DNA of 64,000 nt. It comes from Apilactobacillus kunkeei DSM 12361 = ATCC 700308 (GTDB lineage Bacteria > Bacillota > Bacilli > Lactobacillales > Lactobacillaceae). The position numbers and the translations under genes were made by a program. This document shows positions 58,933 through 64,000 of the stretch, piece by piece. Location of the stretch: the NCBI RefSeq assembly GCF_001281265.1, contig NZ_JXDB01000009.1, positions 186,001 through 250,000 on the forward strand. The letters run 5' to 3'. Numbering within the stretch: position 1 is the first letter of the stretch; each line of letters begins with the position of its first letter. The notes under the pieces are model-generated. The model did not search any database. It was not told the DNA's origin and saw nothing but the letters and a program-made list of their open reading frames with translations.

Positions 58933-60396
58933 TTATTGGCGATACCAATCATAAACCTTTTTAGCACCGTCATAATCAATATAATGAACTCCGGCAGTTT
59001 GCGCAGAATTTCCTTTCCTAATCCGGATAACGATGTGAGCTAGGCTATTTCTCTTCATGAATACGCTAGATTCAAAGTGCATACTTTGAATTTCATGCCA
59101 TCCAACATAGTAGTTTCTTTGTTTGAATAAAAATCCATTAGATACGATTAGGTAATCATCCTTTGTACTTCCTGTTAATCCAATTGAACTAACCCTGTAC
59201 TTAAAGTATGCATTACCAATAGTGTAAAAGAAAGTAAAAACACCGATAACGACTAACGAATATGTTAATGTTGTCCACCCAACAAAGTAAATCACAATTG
59301 GTATGATGAACAATACCCAGTCAAAATTCCTGAAGAATAACCAAATTGATCGTTTACGGGAACTGAATTTTTCGACCGTTTTTAATGGTATCCACTCAAA
59401 GAAATCATTCATCATCTCAGCGTACTTATCTGAGTTTAGAATTGGCAAGACCACCGCTTGTGATGATTCTTCGTCACTACCATCTGAAGCCATGATAATC
59501 TTGACGGTCATAATCTTTAGCAGTTTTCCCATCACATTTTGTTCTATCAAAACACTTTGAATTCTATCGGTGGATAGTCGCACCTTGTTCCTGGTAAATA
59601 GTCCCTTTTCGTATTCAAGATACTTGCCCTCTTTTACCAGTGTAAAATCATAGAATTGAAACATCGTGTAGATAAACGATAGTAATAAAGCAATTATAAT
59701 CGCCATAATTGTAAAGGCAATCAAACTAATCATGTTGGAACCAAATCCCTTTTGGTAGATGCTAATAGCGAAGTCTAAAACTTCACCATGCGTGATGTGG
59801 ACAATCAAGAACATCGTAATGAAGACCCTAAAACTAGTAAAGGTATATAGCGCAATGTCTTTAGTCGAAATCTTGTATTGAGCATAGCCATTATCTTGAG
59901 TGTTTGCTTCCTCTTGGTTGCTATCCTCAATCTTTGCAACGTCTGATTGTTCTACTTCATCATTAACATCTTGGTTTTGGTATTGTTTGTGCTTTTCTTC
60001 TAAAACCCTACCAACGTATGTCTTCACCGCATCCAATTGGATTTTATCTTTGGAACTGCCCTTGCTTGCGTTGTTAATTTGTAGTTTTTCAACGTCAAAT
60101 GGTCTAAATAAAAAGTACTGACTGTGTTCAATCGATTGAATTCTAGCGAATGGAACGTGGATGACCTTTTTGAAGATGACACCTTTTTTAATCACAATTT
60201 GACTATCTTCAATCGAATAGGTAAAGCAAAGATATGAAAGTATATCCCATACTATCGTAATAATTACGAATATAGTCCCTAATTTAAAGCTATCAATGTG
60301 TAATGGATCACCGATAAAGGAAGCTAAAAAAATCGCTATCAAGATGTCTTGAAGACGATTCACTAAGTTTAATGGACTCAGATGTTTATCTTGCAT
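58933..60396 (-). CDS. PH domain-containing membrane protein (YdbT type)
   Basis: 487 aa with three bacterial PH (bPH2) domains. They are near 50-110 (VPFARIQSIEHSQYFLFRP), 245-320 (LSTDRIQSVLIEQNVMGKLL) and 405-475 (VGWHEIQSMHFES), separated by paired membrane spans. An acidic insert (about 135-165) lies between the first two. It is a partner of the YdbS-type protein and overlaps its gene by 11 bp. In bacilli the pair affects bacteriocin resistance. The function here is inferred only from family. Confidence 0.87.
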   Translation of the reverse strand: MQDKHLSPLNLVNRLQDILIAIFLASFIGDPLHIDSFKLGTIFVIITIVWDILSYLCFTYSIEDSQIVIKKGVIFKKVIHVPFARIQSIEHSQYFLFRPFDVEKLQINNASKGSSKDKIQLDAVKTYVGRVLEEKHKQYQNQDVNDEVEQSDVAKIEDSNQEEANTQDNGYAQYKISTKDIALYTFTSFRVFITMFLIVHITHGEVLDFAISIYQKGFGSNMISLIAFTIMAIIIALLLSFIYTMFQFYDFTLVKEGKYLEYEKGLFTRNKVRLSTDRIQSVLIEQNVMGKLLKIMTVKIIMASDGSDEESSQAVVLPILNSDKYAEMMNDFFEWIPLKTVEKFSSRKRSIWLFFRNFDWVLFIIPIVIYFVGWTTLTYSLVVIGVFTFFYTIGNAYFKYRVSSIGLTGSTKDDYLIVSNGFLFKQRNYYVGWHEIQSMHFESSVFMKRNSLAHIVIRIRKGNSAQTAGVHYIDYDGAKKVYDWYRQ

Positions 60397-60853
60397 TTCT
60401 GGCCTCCATCGCTAATCTCATTACTTGGGTCTTAATGTTTTCTGATTCTTCCTTGGTTACGGCAGCAATTTCATGACTGTCAGCGGAAGTATAAATACTA
60501 ATCTTATATAGATTCTTATGTCTTAGAATTGGACCTTGTTCGATATCAACGTTTTGCACACGGGCAATCGGAACGGTGACTTGTTCTCTAAAGATAAAGC
60601 CGTTTTTAATTTCAACGCGATCTTCATGGATAGCATATTGATGAAAAGCATAACGGTACGGGATTGAAATCATGTCCACTAGTGCCCACACCACCAAAAT
60701 GGTTCCTAAGACCGGTAGGATGTATTCAACATACTTCCAGTCCAGATACTTCACACCAATTGTGGCGACGGTAAAGATGATGACTTCGACGATAATGGTA
60801 ATAATGGCTGAATATAGCCATACTGTTTTGACACTCTCAGGTAATTTTTTCAT
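60386..60853 (-). CDS. PH domain-containing membrane protein (YdbS type)
   Basis: 155 aa. Two membrane spans (about 12-35 and 42-65) are followed by one bPH2 domain with VPIARVQNVDIEQGPILRHKN. It is the first half of the YdbS-YdbT pair, membrane-bound with the PH domain inside. GGAGAG precedes the ATG. It follows the alkyltransferase-like gene by 22 bp, so the three form an operon. Confidence 0.87.
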   Translation of the reverse strand: MKKLPESVKTVWLYSAIITIIVEVIIFTVATIGVKYLDWKYVEYILPVLGTILVVWALVDMISIPYRYAFHQYAIHEDRVEIKNGFIFREQVTVPIARVQNVDIEQGPILRHKNLYKISIYTSADSHEIAAVTKEESENIKTQVMRLAMEARNAR

Positions 60854-60875: not shown

Positions 60876-61364
60876 CTATTTTATTCTCTCTAAATCTAGT
60901 AACAAGTTGTTGAAGTCGGCTAACTTACGGTAGCCTTCTGAATAGTCGACATTTAAAATACGGTGAGTTGGAATAATCAAAATCAATGGATTAGTTACTA
61001 CTGCATTCCTGACATCGACCTCCTTGAAGTCATATGTATCACAGAACTCTTTGATATCCATGGTGTTGCCATAATCGATATCATTAATCTTTTGGTAGAT
61101 TTGTTCATTTAATTCGCAAGTTGATAGATCGACTGGTACCTCAAAGTATTTGCGGGTGCCGTCAATGTATTCGCGAAGTTGAATTTTATACTCTTCTGTT
61201 TGCTTACGATTAAATAAGAATTCCGCATCTAATTTTGGGTAAAAGTTATAAATATTGGAAATTCCTGTATTGGGATTATTAACGAAGTTAATCCCCTTTC
61301 TGGTACAGGTAAAATAGATTTTTTGATTTTGGTATTCGACTTGGTCCCAGTATAGTTTTTTCAT
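60876..61364 (-). CDS. O6-alkylguanine-DNA alkyltransferase homologue lacking the active Cys
   Basis: 162 aa in the two-domain layout of Ogt. There is an N-terminal alpha/beta domain (1-75). The C-terminal DNA-binding domain (80-162) has the arginine-finger region VDVRNAVVTNPL and the segment IIPTHRIL. The family active site is PCHR. Here Cys is Thr (T133), so methyl transfer is not possible by the known mechanism. It may act like the alkyltransferase-like (ATL) proteins, which bind damaged DNA and recruit repair. AGGAAGG precedes the ATG. It is first in an operon with two PH-domain genes. Confidence 0.8.
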   Translation of the reverse strand: MKKLYWDQVEYQNQKIYFTCTRKGINFVNNPNTGISNIYNFYPKLDAEFLFNRKQTEEYKIQLREYIDGTRKYFEVPVDLSTCELNEQIYQKINDIDYGNTMDIKEFCDTYDFKEVDVRNAVVTNPLILIIPTHRILNVDYSEGYRKLADFNNLLLDLERIK

Positions 61365-61427
61365 TGGTATCCTTCCTATTTCTAAGTATTATTAATATCT
61401 TACCATAACTTAGTTTGGGTTTTAGAC

Positions 61428-61459
61428 AAAAAAGACACGACGCAATGTCGTGTCTTTTA
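61428..61459 (-). terminator. Terminator of the NlpC/P60 gene
   Basis: Minus-strand AAAAGACACGAC/GTCGTGTCTTTT hairpin with a GCAAT-type loop and T-run. Confidence 0.92.
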
Positions 61460-62291: not shown

Positions 62292-63599
62292 ATGGACTTA
62301 TATTCATATGACTACTTAATCCATCCAAATACTATCGTTACATATTTGCTATTAGCATTAGCGGTAATTGTTGGATTAATGATTATTTTTAACGGTTTTA
62401 AATACATGCGCGATAGAACCAACTTAAAATATCGTGACATATTTATTACCATGATTGTGATTGCGATATTATCAATTAGTATCGGTTTTAGTAATATTTT
62501 GCAACAACGCAACTCTTCGTCGCAAAATTCTCAAACTACTGAAATGGTTAAGGCCATTAGTCGAAGCAAACATATTTCAACATCAAAGATTTACGTTAGC
62601 TCCCCTCAATTAACTAATGGTATGACTGTAAAGGTTGGCGATAAGTTCTACCAAGCAACTTTTAACTCCAGCTTTAACAGTTATCAACTTCAACCAATTC
62701 AACTAATTCCTACCAATATTACTTATCACGACAAGCCATCACTTCAAATTGGCGATTTGAACAAGGAATACTTGGTAATCTTATTTAAGTTCTTAATCGG
62801 ATTCGTTGTATTGGTAATTCAAATTAACATTTCTGGTAAAGGAAACTTGGCTCCTTCTAACGCGGTTGATCAAATTCAAAACTACGTTCTTGGTGGTATC
62901 ATCGGGGGTATGATTTACAACCAACAAATCACTACACTACAATTCTTCATCGTATTGTTAATCTGGTCTTTGGTTATCTTCACTAGTCGTATCCTCAGTC
63001 GTCAATTTGCAATATTCCATCGAATATTCAATGGTGATCCACAAAACATCATTACTAACGGAATCGTTAATGTTGATACTGCCTTAAAGAATGGTATGTC
63101 AGCAGCCGATTTATCATTTAAACTAAGAACTAAGGGTATCAGTAACTTCCAAGACGTTAAGTCAGCTGTCCTAGAACAAAATGGGCAACTTACTGTTACC
63201 ACATTCGGTGATGAATCACTAAGCTATCCTATCATTACCGATGGGACAGTTAATTCCGAAGTCTTAGAAAAGATGGGCCACGACATGGACTGGATTGAAC
63301 AATTAGCTAAAGATTCACATAAAGAAATTGCTCAAATTTACTTGGGTCAATATGTTGATGATCATTTGGTAATCATTCCATATCCTACTCATAAGAAGCG
63401 TCCATGGTACTACGAACTTGGTGAACGTGTAGAAAACTTCTCACACAATCACAATCTAACGCCTGAAAGAATTAAGAATGCTAAATCATTACAACAACTT
63501 AAAGAACTTTCAAAGAAGCGTCATTTAGGTTCTAAATCAAACAAAGATAATAAGAAGCCTACTAATCAGCGTGGCACAAAAGGAACAAAAGAACAATAA
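62292..63599 (+). CDS. Fused DUF3290-DUF421 (YetF-like) membrane protein
   Basis: 435 aa. Residues 1-150 resemble DUF3290: two spans followed by an extracytoplasmic segment with SPQLTNGMTVKVGDKFYQAT. Residues about 155-355 are a DUF421/YetF protein: three spans with NISGKGNLAPSNAVDQIQNY and NYVLGGIIGGMIYN, then a cytoplasmic domain with LSFKLRTKGISNFQDVKSAV and LEQNGQLTV. A basic, low-complexity tail (about 390-435) ends the protein. In other lactobacilli these are two adjacent genes. Function is unknown. Start ATG after AAGGTG. Confidence 0.82.
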   Translation: MDLYSYDYLIHPNTIVTYLLLALAVIVGLMIIFNGFKYMRDRTNLKYRDIFITMIVIAILSISIGFSNILQQRNSSSQNSQTTEMVKAISRSKHISTSKIYVSSPQLTNGMTVKVGDKFYQATFNSSFNSYQLQPIQLIPTNITYHDKPSLQIGDLNKEYLVILFKFLIGFVVLVIQINISGKGNLAPSNAVDQIQNYVLGGIIGGMIYNQQITTLQFFIVLLIWSLVIFTSRILSRQFAIFHRIFNGDPQNIITNGIVNVDTALKNGMSAADLSFKLRTKGISNFQDVKSAVLEQNGQLTVTTFGDESLSYPIITDGTVNSEVLEKMGHDMDWIEQLAKDSHKEIAQIYLGQYVDDHLVIIPYPTHKKRPWYYELGERVENFSHNHNLTPERIKNAKSLQQLKELSKKRHLGSKSNKDNKKPTNQRGTKGTKEQ

Positions 63600-63611: not shown

Positions 63612-64000
63612 TGACCTGAACCCCTAAAATTGGAAGATGGTTATGCTATTTTCTGGGAGGAATTGATCCGGTATTCAACCGGTGACATTCCTCCCAGTTT
63701 TTGTTTTATACGATAATTGTTGTAATAAGATATATATTCCTTAACCGCCTGGTTAAGGGAATTATAATCTTTAAAATTATTGTCATGAACAGTGCCGACC
63801 TTTAACTGATTAAAGAAACTTTCTATGCATGCATTGTCTAAACAAGTAGCTTTTCTACTCATACTTTGAAAAACTTTATTACTTTTTAAAATGTTGATAT
63901 ATCTACCGTTTTGATACTGAAATCCTTGATCTGAATGAATGGTCATTCTGTAACTGGTTTTGGGACGTAGTCCCATTAATTTATTTAATGGAGAAACTAT
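63612..64000 (-). mobile_element. IS3-family insertion sequence (partial, right side cut by window)
   Basis: The left boundary is at TGACCTGAACCCCTAAAATT (from 63612), the type of terminal repeat seen in the IS150 group. It is followed by the 3' end of an OrfB transposase on the minus strand. It lies 12 bp after the stop of the fused membrane protein gene. The other end and target duplication are not visible. Confidence 0.8.
63641..64000 (-). CDS. IS3-family transposase OrfB (partial, C-terminal part)
   Basis: The last 119 codons are visible and the frame stays open to the right edge (reading IVSPLNKLMGLRP at the edge). The rve integrase core has the second Asp in HSDQGFQYQ and the Glu in NACIESFFNQLK, separated by 35 residues as in the D-D-35-E family. 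The end PVEYRINSS is typical of IS3 OrfB C-termini. The first Asp and OrfA are outside the window. Confidence 0.9.
   Translation of the reverse strand: MVSPLNKLMGLRPKTSYRMTIHSDQGFQYQNGRYINILKSNKVFQSMSRKATCLDNACIESFFNQLKVGTVHDNNFKDYNSLNQAVKEYISYYNNYRIKQKLGGMSPVEYRINSSQKIA

Follow-up and report, generated by a model that had tools for sequence, protein, structure and literature searches.

A full-length Ogt homolog without the alkyl-accepting cysteine in Apilactobacillus kunkeei, a candidate pseudo-alkyltransferase

In a 64,000-nucleotide stretch of the Apilactobacillus kunkeei DSM 12361 genome (contig NZ_JXDB01000009.1, positions 186,001 to 250,000; hereafter the window), an intact open reading frame with an ATG start at 60876..61364 on the minus strand encodes a 162-amino-acid homolog of O6-alkylguanine transferase (Ogt/AGT), here called pseudo-Ogt; the plus strand across 60876-61364 is stop-rich. 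By reading of the sequence, a ribosome-binding-site-like AGGAAGG lies 6 nt 5' of the ATG (61371..61377, minus), and a 12-bp hairpin with A/T ends lies between the NlpC/P60 gene and the pseudo-Ogt gene (61430..61458). This hairpin is terminator-like, so the upstream NlpC/P60 gene is probably a separate transcription unit and an operon that includes both genes is unlikely; the hairpin is absent from the list of the consensus scan. Downstream, 22 bp from pseudo-Ogt, is the gene for a small bPH_2 membrane protein (60386..60853, minus), which overlaps by 11 bp a gene for a large bPH_2 membrane protein (58933..60396, minus). Elsewhere in the window, DUF3290 and YetF domains are fused in one protein (62292-63599, plus), and an ORF at 63641-63976 (minus) resembles, by eye, the C terminus of an IS3-type transposase.

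The identification of this protein as an O6-alkylguanine transferase homolog, first proposed in a sequence-only reading of the window, is borne out by several comparisons. It scores 26.7 bits against PF01035 in Pfam (cut-off 27) and 28.1 bits in a whole-genome scan, 29.2 against NCBIfam TIGR00589 (cut-off 46.4), and matches solved AGT structures at E 2.1e-9. Alignment by hhalign with a canonical profile of six Lactobacillaceae Ogts gave a probability of 100% over 159 columns (residues 1-160), and because this match starts at residue 1, the N-terminal Ogt domain is present, as the same reading had held; Pfam did not report PF02870, the Ogt N-terminal family, for this protein. The closest named relative found is A. 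kunkeei LMbo (96% protein identity). In an AlphaFold2 model from eight sequences (mean pLDDT 56.9), the C-terminal alkyltransferase-type domain (residues 81-162; 60876..61124, minus), which holds the PF01035 match at residues 85-160, includes the best-modelled stretch (residues 81-140, block means 73-92), and the N-terminal domain (residues 1-80; 61125..61364, minus) has block means below 50. With this model, the top 34 rows from Foldseek were AGTs or tags derived from them, followed at row 35 by the S. pombe ATL (best E 1.4e-4, TM 0.38), and the top rows of a VIA search were also AGTs (Z up to 4.6). The model thus weakly suggests an AGT fold for the C-terminal domain, and the assignment of the N-terminal domain, modelled with low confidence, rests on sequence.

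Residue numbers and roles of human AGT are used here as given in a review (PMC10779285). Thr133 (codon ACT; 60966..60968, minus) replaces the alkyl-accepting Cys (human Cys145), within P132-T133-H134-R135, so that both the reported change from PCHR to PTHR and the retention of the flanking Pro, His, and Arg are confirmed. His134 (human His146; 60963..60965, minus) and Glu159 (human Glu172; 60888..60890, minus) are invariant. However, the statement that the arginine-finger region remains was wrong: in MAFFT and hhalign alignments the position of Arg128 is occupied by Val116 (61017..61019, minus), with two residues deleted immediately before it, and the visible R119 aligns to a Gly three residues past the finger. 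Ile104 (61053..61055, minus; MAFFT) stands at the position of the base-flipping Tyr114, and the active-site loop no longer has its GG.

These changes are shared across the genus. Among 14 Apilactobacillus proteins, the counts for Tyr114, Arg128, Asn137, Cys145, His146, and Glu172 (human numbering, in this order throughout) are 0, 0, 14, 0, 14, and 14; the hinge Asn (Asn125 in the window protein) and the Arg147 equivalent are kept in 14/14, and all 14 lack two residues of the helix-turn-helix at the finger, where hhalign also places its gap. The corresponding counts are 0, 0, 0, 0, 9, and 9 for the Cys-less proteins of genus g26 (n = 9), 0, 0, 0, 0, 2, and 2 for g32 (n = 2), and 0, 0, 1, 0, 1, and 1 for g34 (n = 1), and the single g36 protein keeps Tyr and Arg with Cys replaced by Asp (PDHR). 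All six residues are present in the PCHR protein of genome G196 (n = 1), in g14 (n = 8), and in 32 other canonical Ogts, except for one without Arg128. The Apilactobacillus C-terminal domain is acidic, with a mean net charge of -4.0 (-3.1 in the helix-turn-helix region), compared with +6.2 and +2.7 in 28 canonical Ogts, although the gap is smaller relative to three canonical g14 orthologs, whose C-domain mean is +2.3.

The pseudo-Ogt gene occurs in 14 of 16 Apilactobacillus genomes, including the window's own, and no copy has an internal stop. Each of the 14 genomes has one PF01035 match (E 1e-4 to 1e-10), taken as the pseudo-Ogt; a search of the window's genome (G000) for a normal PCHR Ogt elsewhere found none, with no second PF01035 match at E 0.001. 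The other two genomes, G008 and G014, have no PF01035 match, and the gene, absent from 2 of 16 genomes in the genus, is therefore dispensable. At the Cys site, seven copies have Thr, seven have Ser, and none has Cys, so the non-Cys state is genus-wide (14/14) but Thr itself, whose conservation had been the point to check, is not uniform. A quick genus tree requires at least four changes between Thr and Ser, with no other residue at the site, and both AGY and TCT codons are used for Ser.

Ratios of dN/dS (Nei-Gojobori) range from 0.06 to 0.26 in 20 of 21 kunkeei-group pairs, where synonymous distances reach 1.3 with dN/dS near 0.1; the closest pair (dS 0.02) gives 0.71, from too few changes to weigh. 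Six micheneri-group pairs give 0.13-0.25, and comparisons with the named species L003-L005 give 0.09-0.19, against 0.00-0.18 for seven neighboring genes where present; synonymous sites are saturated relative to L007 and L008. Pseudo-Ogt is under purifying selection in Apilactobacillus. Because the loss of Cys is genus-wide and the gene is under such selection, a recent inactivating mutation, raised earlier as an explanation that relatives with Cys would favor, is rejected, although Cys-bearing orthologs do exist in G196 and g14. Of the two halves of the protein, the N-terminal one is the better conserved in most pairs from Apilactobacillus (74 of 91) and from the g26 Cys-less set (34 of 36). 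By comparison, this holds for 12 of 28 pairs among canonical g14 proteins, 18 of 91 from genus g37, and 0 of the 496 pairs drawn from other canonical Ogts; the g32/g34/g36 set stands at 3 of 6. The conserved N-terminal face comprises W6 and the stretch GIxFxxNPNxGISxIYxF...LxAEF, and this N-terminal motif is kept in 14/14 Apilactobacillus proteins.

With respect to the neighborhood, the proposed operon with PH-domain membrane proteins stands for the window, where pseudo-Ogt and the two close downstream bPH_2 genes form an operon as judged by spacing, but an obligatory link does not, as there are exceptions in both directions. PH-domain genes adjoin pseudo-Ogt in 13 of the 14 Apilactobacillus carriers, and no PH genes lie at the pseudo-Ogt locus of the fourteenth (L014/L005, A. 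zhangqiuensis); conversely, the locus in G008 and G014 has NlpC followed by a lipoprotein nuclease gene and PH genes, without Ogt. No PH genes were found in 35 loci from other genera (L056-L090, covering g14, g26, g32, g34, g36, and one g4 genome), among which L076 and L078 hold a canonical second Ogt copy instead. Given the absence of PH genes from sister-genus loci, the pairing with pseudo-Ogt is a genus-level neighborhood. The lipoprotein nuclease (PF13930; L084:6569-7534, L083:6509-7390, and L126:5998-6828), labelled EndA-type here, overlaps pseudo-ogt in g32 and g34 and replaces it in G008 and G014; it is missing from the window, and is thus not an obligatory partner. A defence or phage origin was also considered and rejected, as PADLOC returned 0 families and PHROGs one weak family ("DNA methyltransferase", E 8e-5).

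In gene trees, Apilactobacillus groups with g32, g34, and g36 (89/65 and 96/80 support); in a larger tree that includes g37, g26 is next to that group (90/89), with g14 just outside. An rpoB tree agrees with this order in outline but branches differently among g32, g34, and g36; G048 and several other tree rows have long branches and an unsure exact placement. G196 is basal in g26 on both gene and rpoB trees, and its Ogt (PCHR, with Tyr and Arg kept) is encoded near YetF and NlpC and preceded by a small 84-codon frame. The order YetF-NlpC-Ogt is common to G196, g36, and Apilactobacillus, and g32 has it likewise with a transporter gene between. The presence of a canonical gene at the same locus in G196 suggests that the ancestor of the Apilactobacillus pseudo-Ogt was most likely a normal Ogt, and vertical inheritance is the best reading of its history.

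The fewest changes in Cys state are two in the locus-related set and four with g37 included. We read these changes as losses, and a regain in G196 may formally have occurred. On its own, the gene tree is compatible with a single loss in the locus-related set (AU p 0.158), and there would be two losses if rpoB, with the PCHR-bearing G196 inside g26, gives the gene history. In g26, the Cys-less form is found beside a canonical copy (three canonical copies were read, and 6 of 10 g26 genomes have two PF01035 matches). Sister genera with the same finger and Tyr losses have Leu, Met, or Val at the Cys site, and Thr in one. At the order level, 126 of 295 genomes have matches at E 1e-20, and the 14 out-of-family matches inspected are all PCHR; in the open-access literature, we found no title or abstract on Thr/Ser Ogts in lactobacilli. 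Other departures from the canonical gene were also seen. In G187 (g9; L155/L156), ogt appears to be disrupted by a stop and a change of frame, a case of plain decay unlike the retained Cys-less genes. In g29 and g17 (L133, L137, L138, L141, L145, and L148), Cys is kept and the Pro of PCHR is lost (IACHR, IGCHR, NACHR, and NACHH), and g6 (L144, L146, L147, and L149-L154) has short frames of 102-136 codons that are of ATL length yet bear Cys in PCHR.

Genus g37 (Lactobacillaceae) presents a different kind of Cys-less Ogt, forming a separate clade in the gene tree. Among 18 g37 genomes (loci L157-L171, L134, L136, L139, L140, L142, and L143), 10 copies have PSHR (two proteins being identical), five have Asp (one as PDQR and one truncated at the N terminus), and three have PCHR, fractions that are not frequencies since genomes were picked by match and the copy sampled was the profile-matching one or that with the weakest PF01035 score. 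Like the window protein, the Cys-less members are full-length Ogts in which Cys is replaced, here by Ser or Asp, but they retain the base-flipping parts, with Tyr114 and Arg128 kept in all 15 g37 sequences aligned, 12 of them Cys-less. According to Pfam, the Ogt and TerC genes overlap in L169, a methylpurine-DNA glycosylase gene lying beyond the latter, and in L164 the Ogt gene lies between Sir2 and methylpurine-DNA glycosylase genes. From their residues, the g37 proteins look like candidate ATL-like sensors that keep the N-terminal domain, and they fit this description better than the window's group.

Compared with canonical Ogt/AGT (PF01035 plus PF02870), pseudo-Ogt shares homology over both domains, with a full-length profile match and PF01035 at the cut-off, as well as PxHR, the Cys-activating His146-Glu172 pair, and the predicted C-domain fold. 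It differs in the absence of the nucleophilic Cys, Arg128, and Tyr114, in the shorter helix-turn-helix, and in the acidic C-terminal domain. In the review, the Cys-less AGT homologs are the ATLs, short lesion sensors such as E. coli ATL and S. pombe Atl1, which have no N-terminal domain, mostly carry Trp at the Cys site, and still possess the Tyr, Arg finger, and helix-turn-helix (PMC10779285). Pseudo-Ogt resembles them in having an alkyltransferase-type domain without the catalytic Cys, whereas it possesses the N-terminal domain, has Thr or Ser rather than Trp, lacks the finger and Tyr, and retains the hinge Asn missing from ATLs. By membership, as far as these sequence features tell, it is not an ATL. 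The sequence-only reading had left a choice between a new ATL-like group and recruitment to another job, and the second option fits better because features shared by ATLs and AGTs are missing or altered and the C-terminal domain is acidic.

We consider it moderately probable that pseudo-Ogt is a pseudo-alkyltransferase with another job, serving as a scaffold or regulator that binds protein by way of its conserved N-terminal face. A canonical Ogt at the YetF-NlpC locus would have lost its alkyl-accepting Cys, and the Apilactobacillus lineage would also have lost the arginine finger, the base-flipping Tyr, and the basic charge around the helix-turn-helix. Purifying selection would have continued to act on the N-terminal domain and on those elements of the C-terminal domain that hold the fold (PxHR, His, and Glu). 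The protein has no Cys at the site for alkyl acceptance and is probably unable to flip out a damaged base or hold on to it, and in our best reading it no longer repairs or senses O6-alkylguanine. From the observed homology, residue losses, constraint, and a locus in common with a canonical ortholog, we infer both an absence of DNA binding and a protein-protein function; a protein-binding role is favored because the conserved parts are the N-terminal face and the fold core, while the parts for the reaction and those shared by ATLs and AGTs are gone. Apilactobacillus proteins still carry Asn137 and PxHR, more than a pure N-domain scaffold would call for, and this counts against that reading.

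This same retention of Asn137, together with His and Glu, suits a lesion sensor of the ATL type, in which Thr or Ser in place of Cys would allow O6-alkylguanine to be bound unreacted and handed over to excision repair. The restriction to Thr and Ser in 14/14 proteins over at least four changes and the lack of any other PF01035 match in the 14 genomes are consistent with such a role, laboratory Cys-to-Ser AGT mutants bind in such a way, and a Cys-to-Ser human AGT has been crystallized with damaged DNA (PMC10779285). Nevertheless, Arg128 and Tyr114 are lost in 14/14, the helix-turn-helix is shortened, the C-terminal domain is acidic, the active-site-loop GG is gone, and sister genera with the same losses carry Leu, Met, or Val, with a single Thr, so we regard a sensor as quite unlikely in Apilactobacillus. 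The Leu, Met, and Val residues, in proteins with the same remaining features, also weigh against new chemistry such as hydrolysis or acyl transfer by a Thr/Ser133-His134-Glu159 triad. A hydroxyl residue in all 14 proteins, invariant His and Glu, and repeated switching with both AGY and TCT codons would be expected of such an enzyme, but Thr-Ser is a common exchange, and we think this explanation very improbable.

It is also conceivable, if unlikely, that the gene is a decaying relic, on its way out of a shrinking genome after Ogt function was lost. The catalytic motif is gone, two of the 16 genomes lack the gene, and reduced genomes with some DNA-repair genes absent are described for bee-associated lactobacilli (PMC11577768). 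However, a relic should show broken frames and no purifying selection, whereas in Apilactobacillus all 14 frames are stop-free, dN/dS in the kunkeei group is about 0.1 across dS values as high as 1.3, the N-terminal motif is universally kept, and the same losses recur in g26, g32, and g34. Returning to the pseudo-alkyltransferase reading, we tentatively suggest, as a possibility short of an even chance, that it is the end of a two-step route recurring in Lactobacillaceae: Cys would first give way to Ser or Asp while the base-flipping parts survive, yielding a convergent full-length ATL-like sensor (g37 and g36), and the finger, Tyr, and DNA surface would then be lost, yielding a DNA-independent, N-domain-based pseudo-alkyltransferase (Apilactobacillus, g26, g32, and g34).

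Overall, on the gene tree of one bacterial family, full-length Ogts have changed the Cys at least four times, and they fall into two grades according to whether the base-flipping apparatus is kept. The natural series from PCHR through PDHR/PSHR to PTHR/PLHR/PVHR may provide a testbed for the passage of a suicide repair enzyme to a sensor and then to a scaffold. It also carries a warning for genome annotation, since a PF01035-based assignment may call a genome competent in O6-alkylguanine repair even though its sole match lacks the residue that performs the chemistry.
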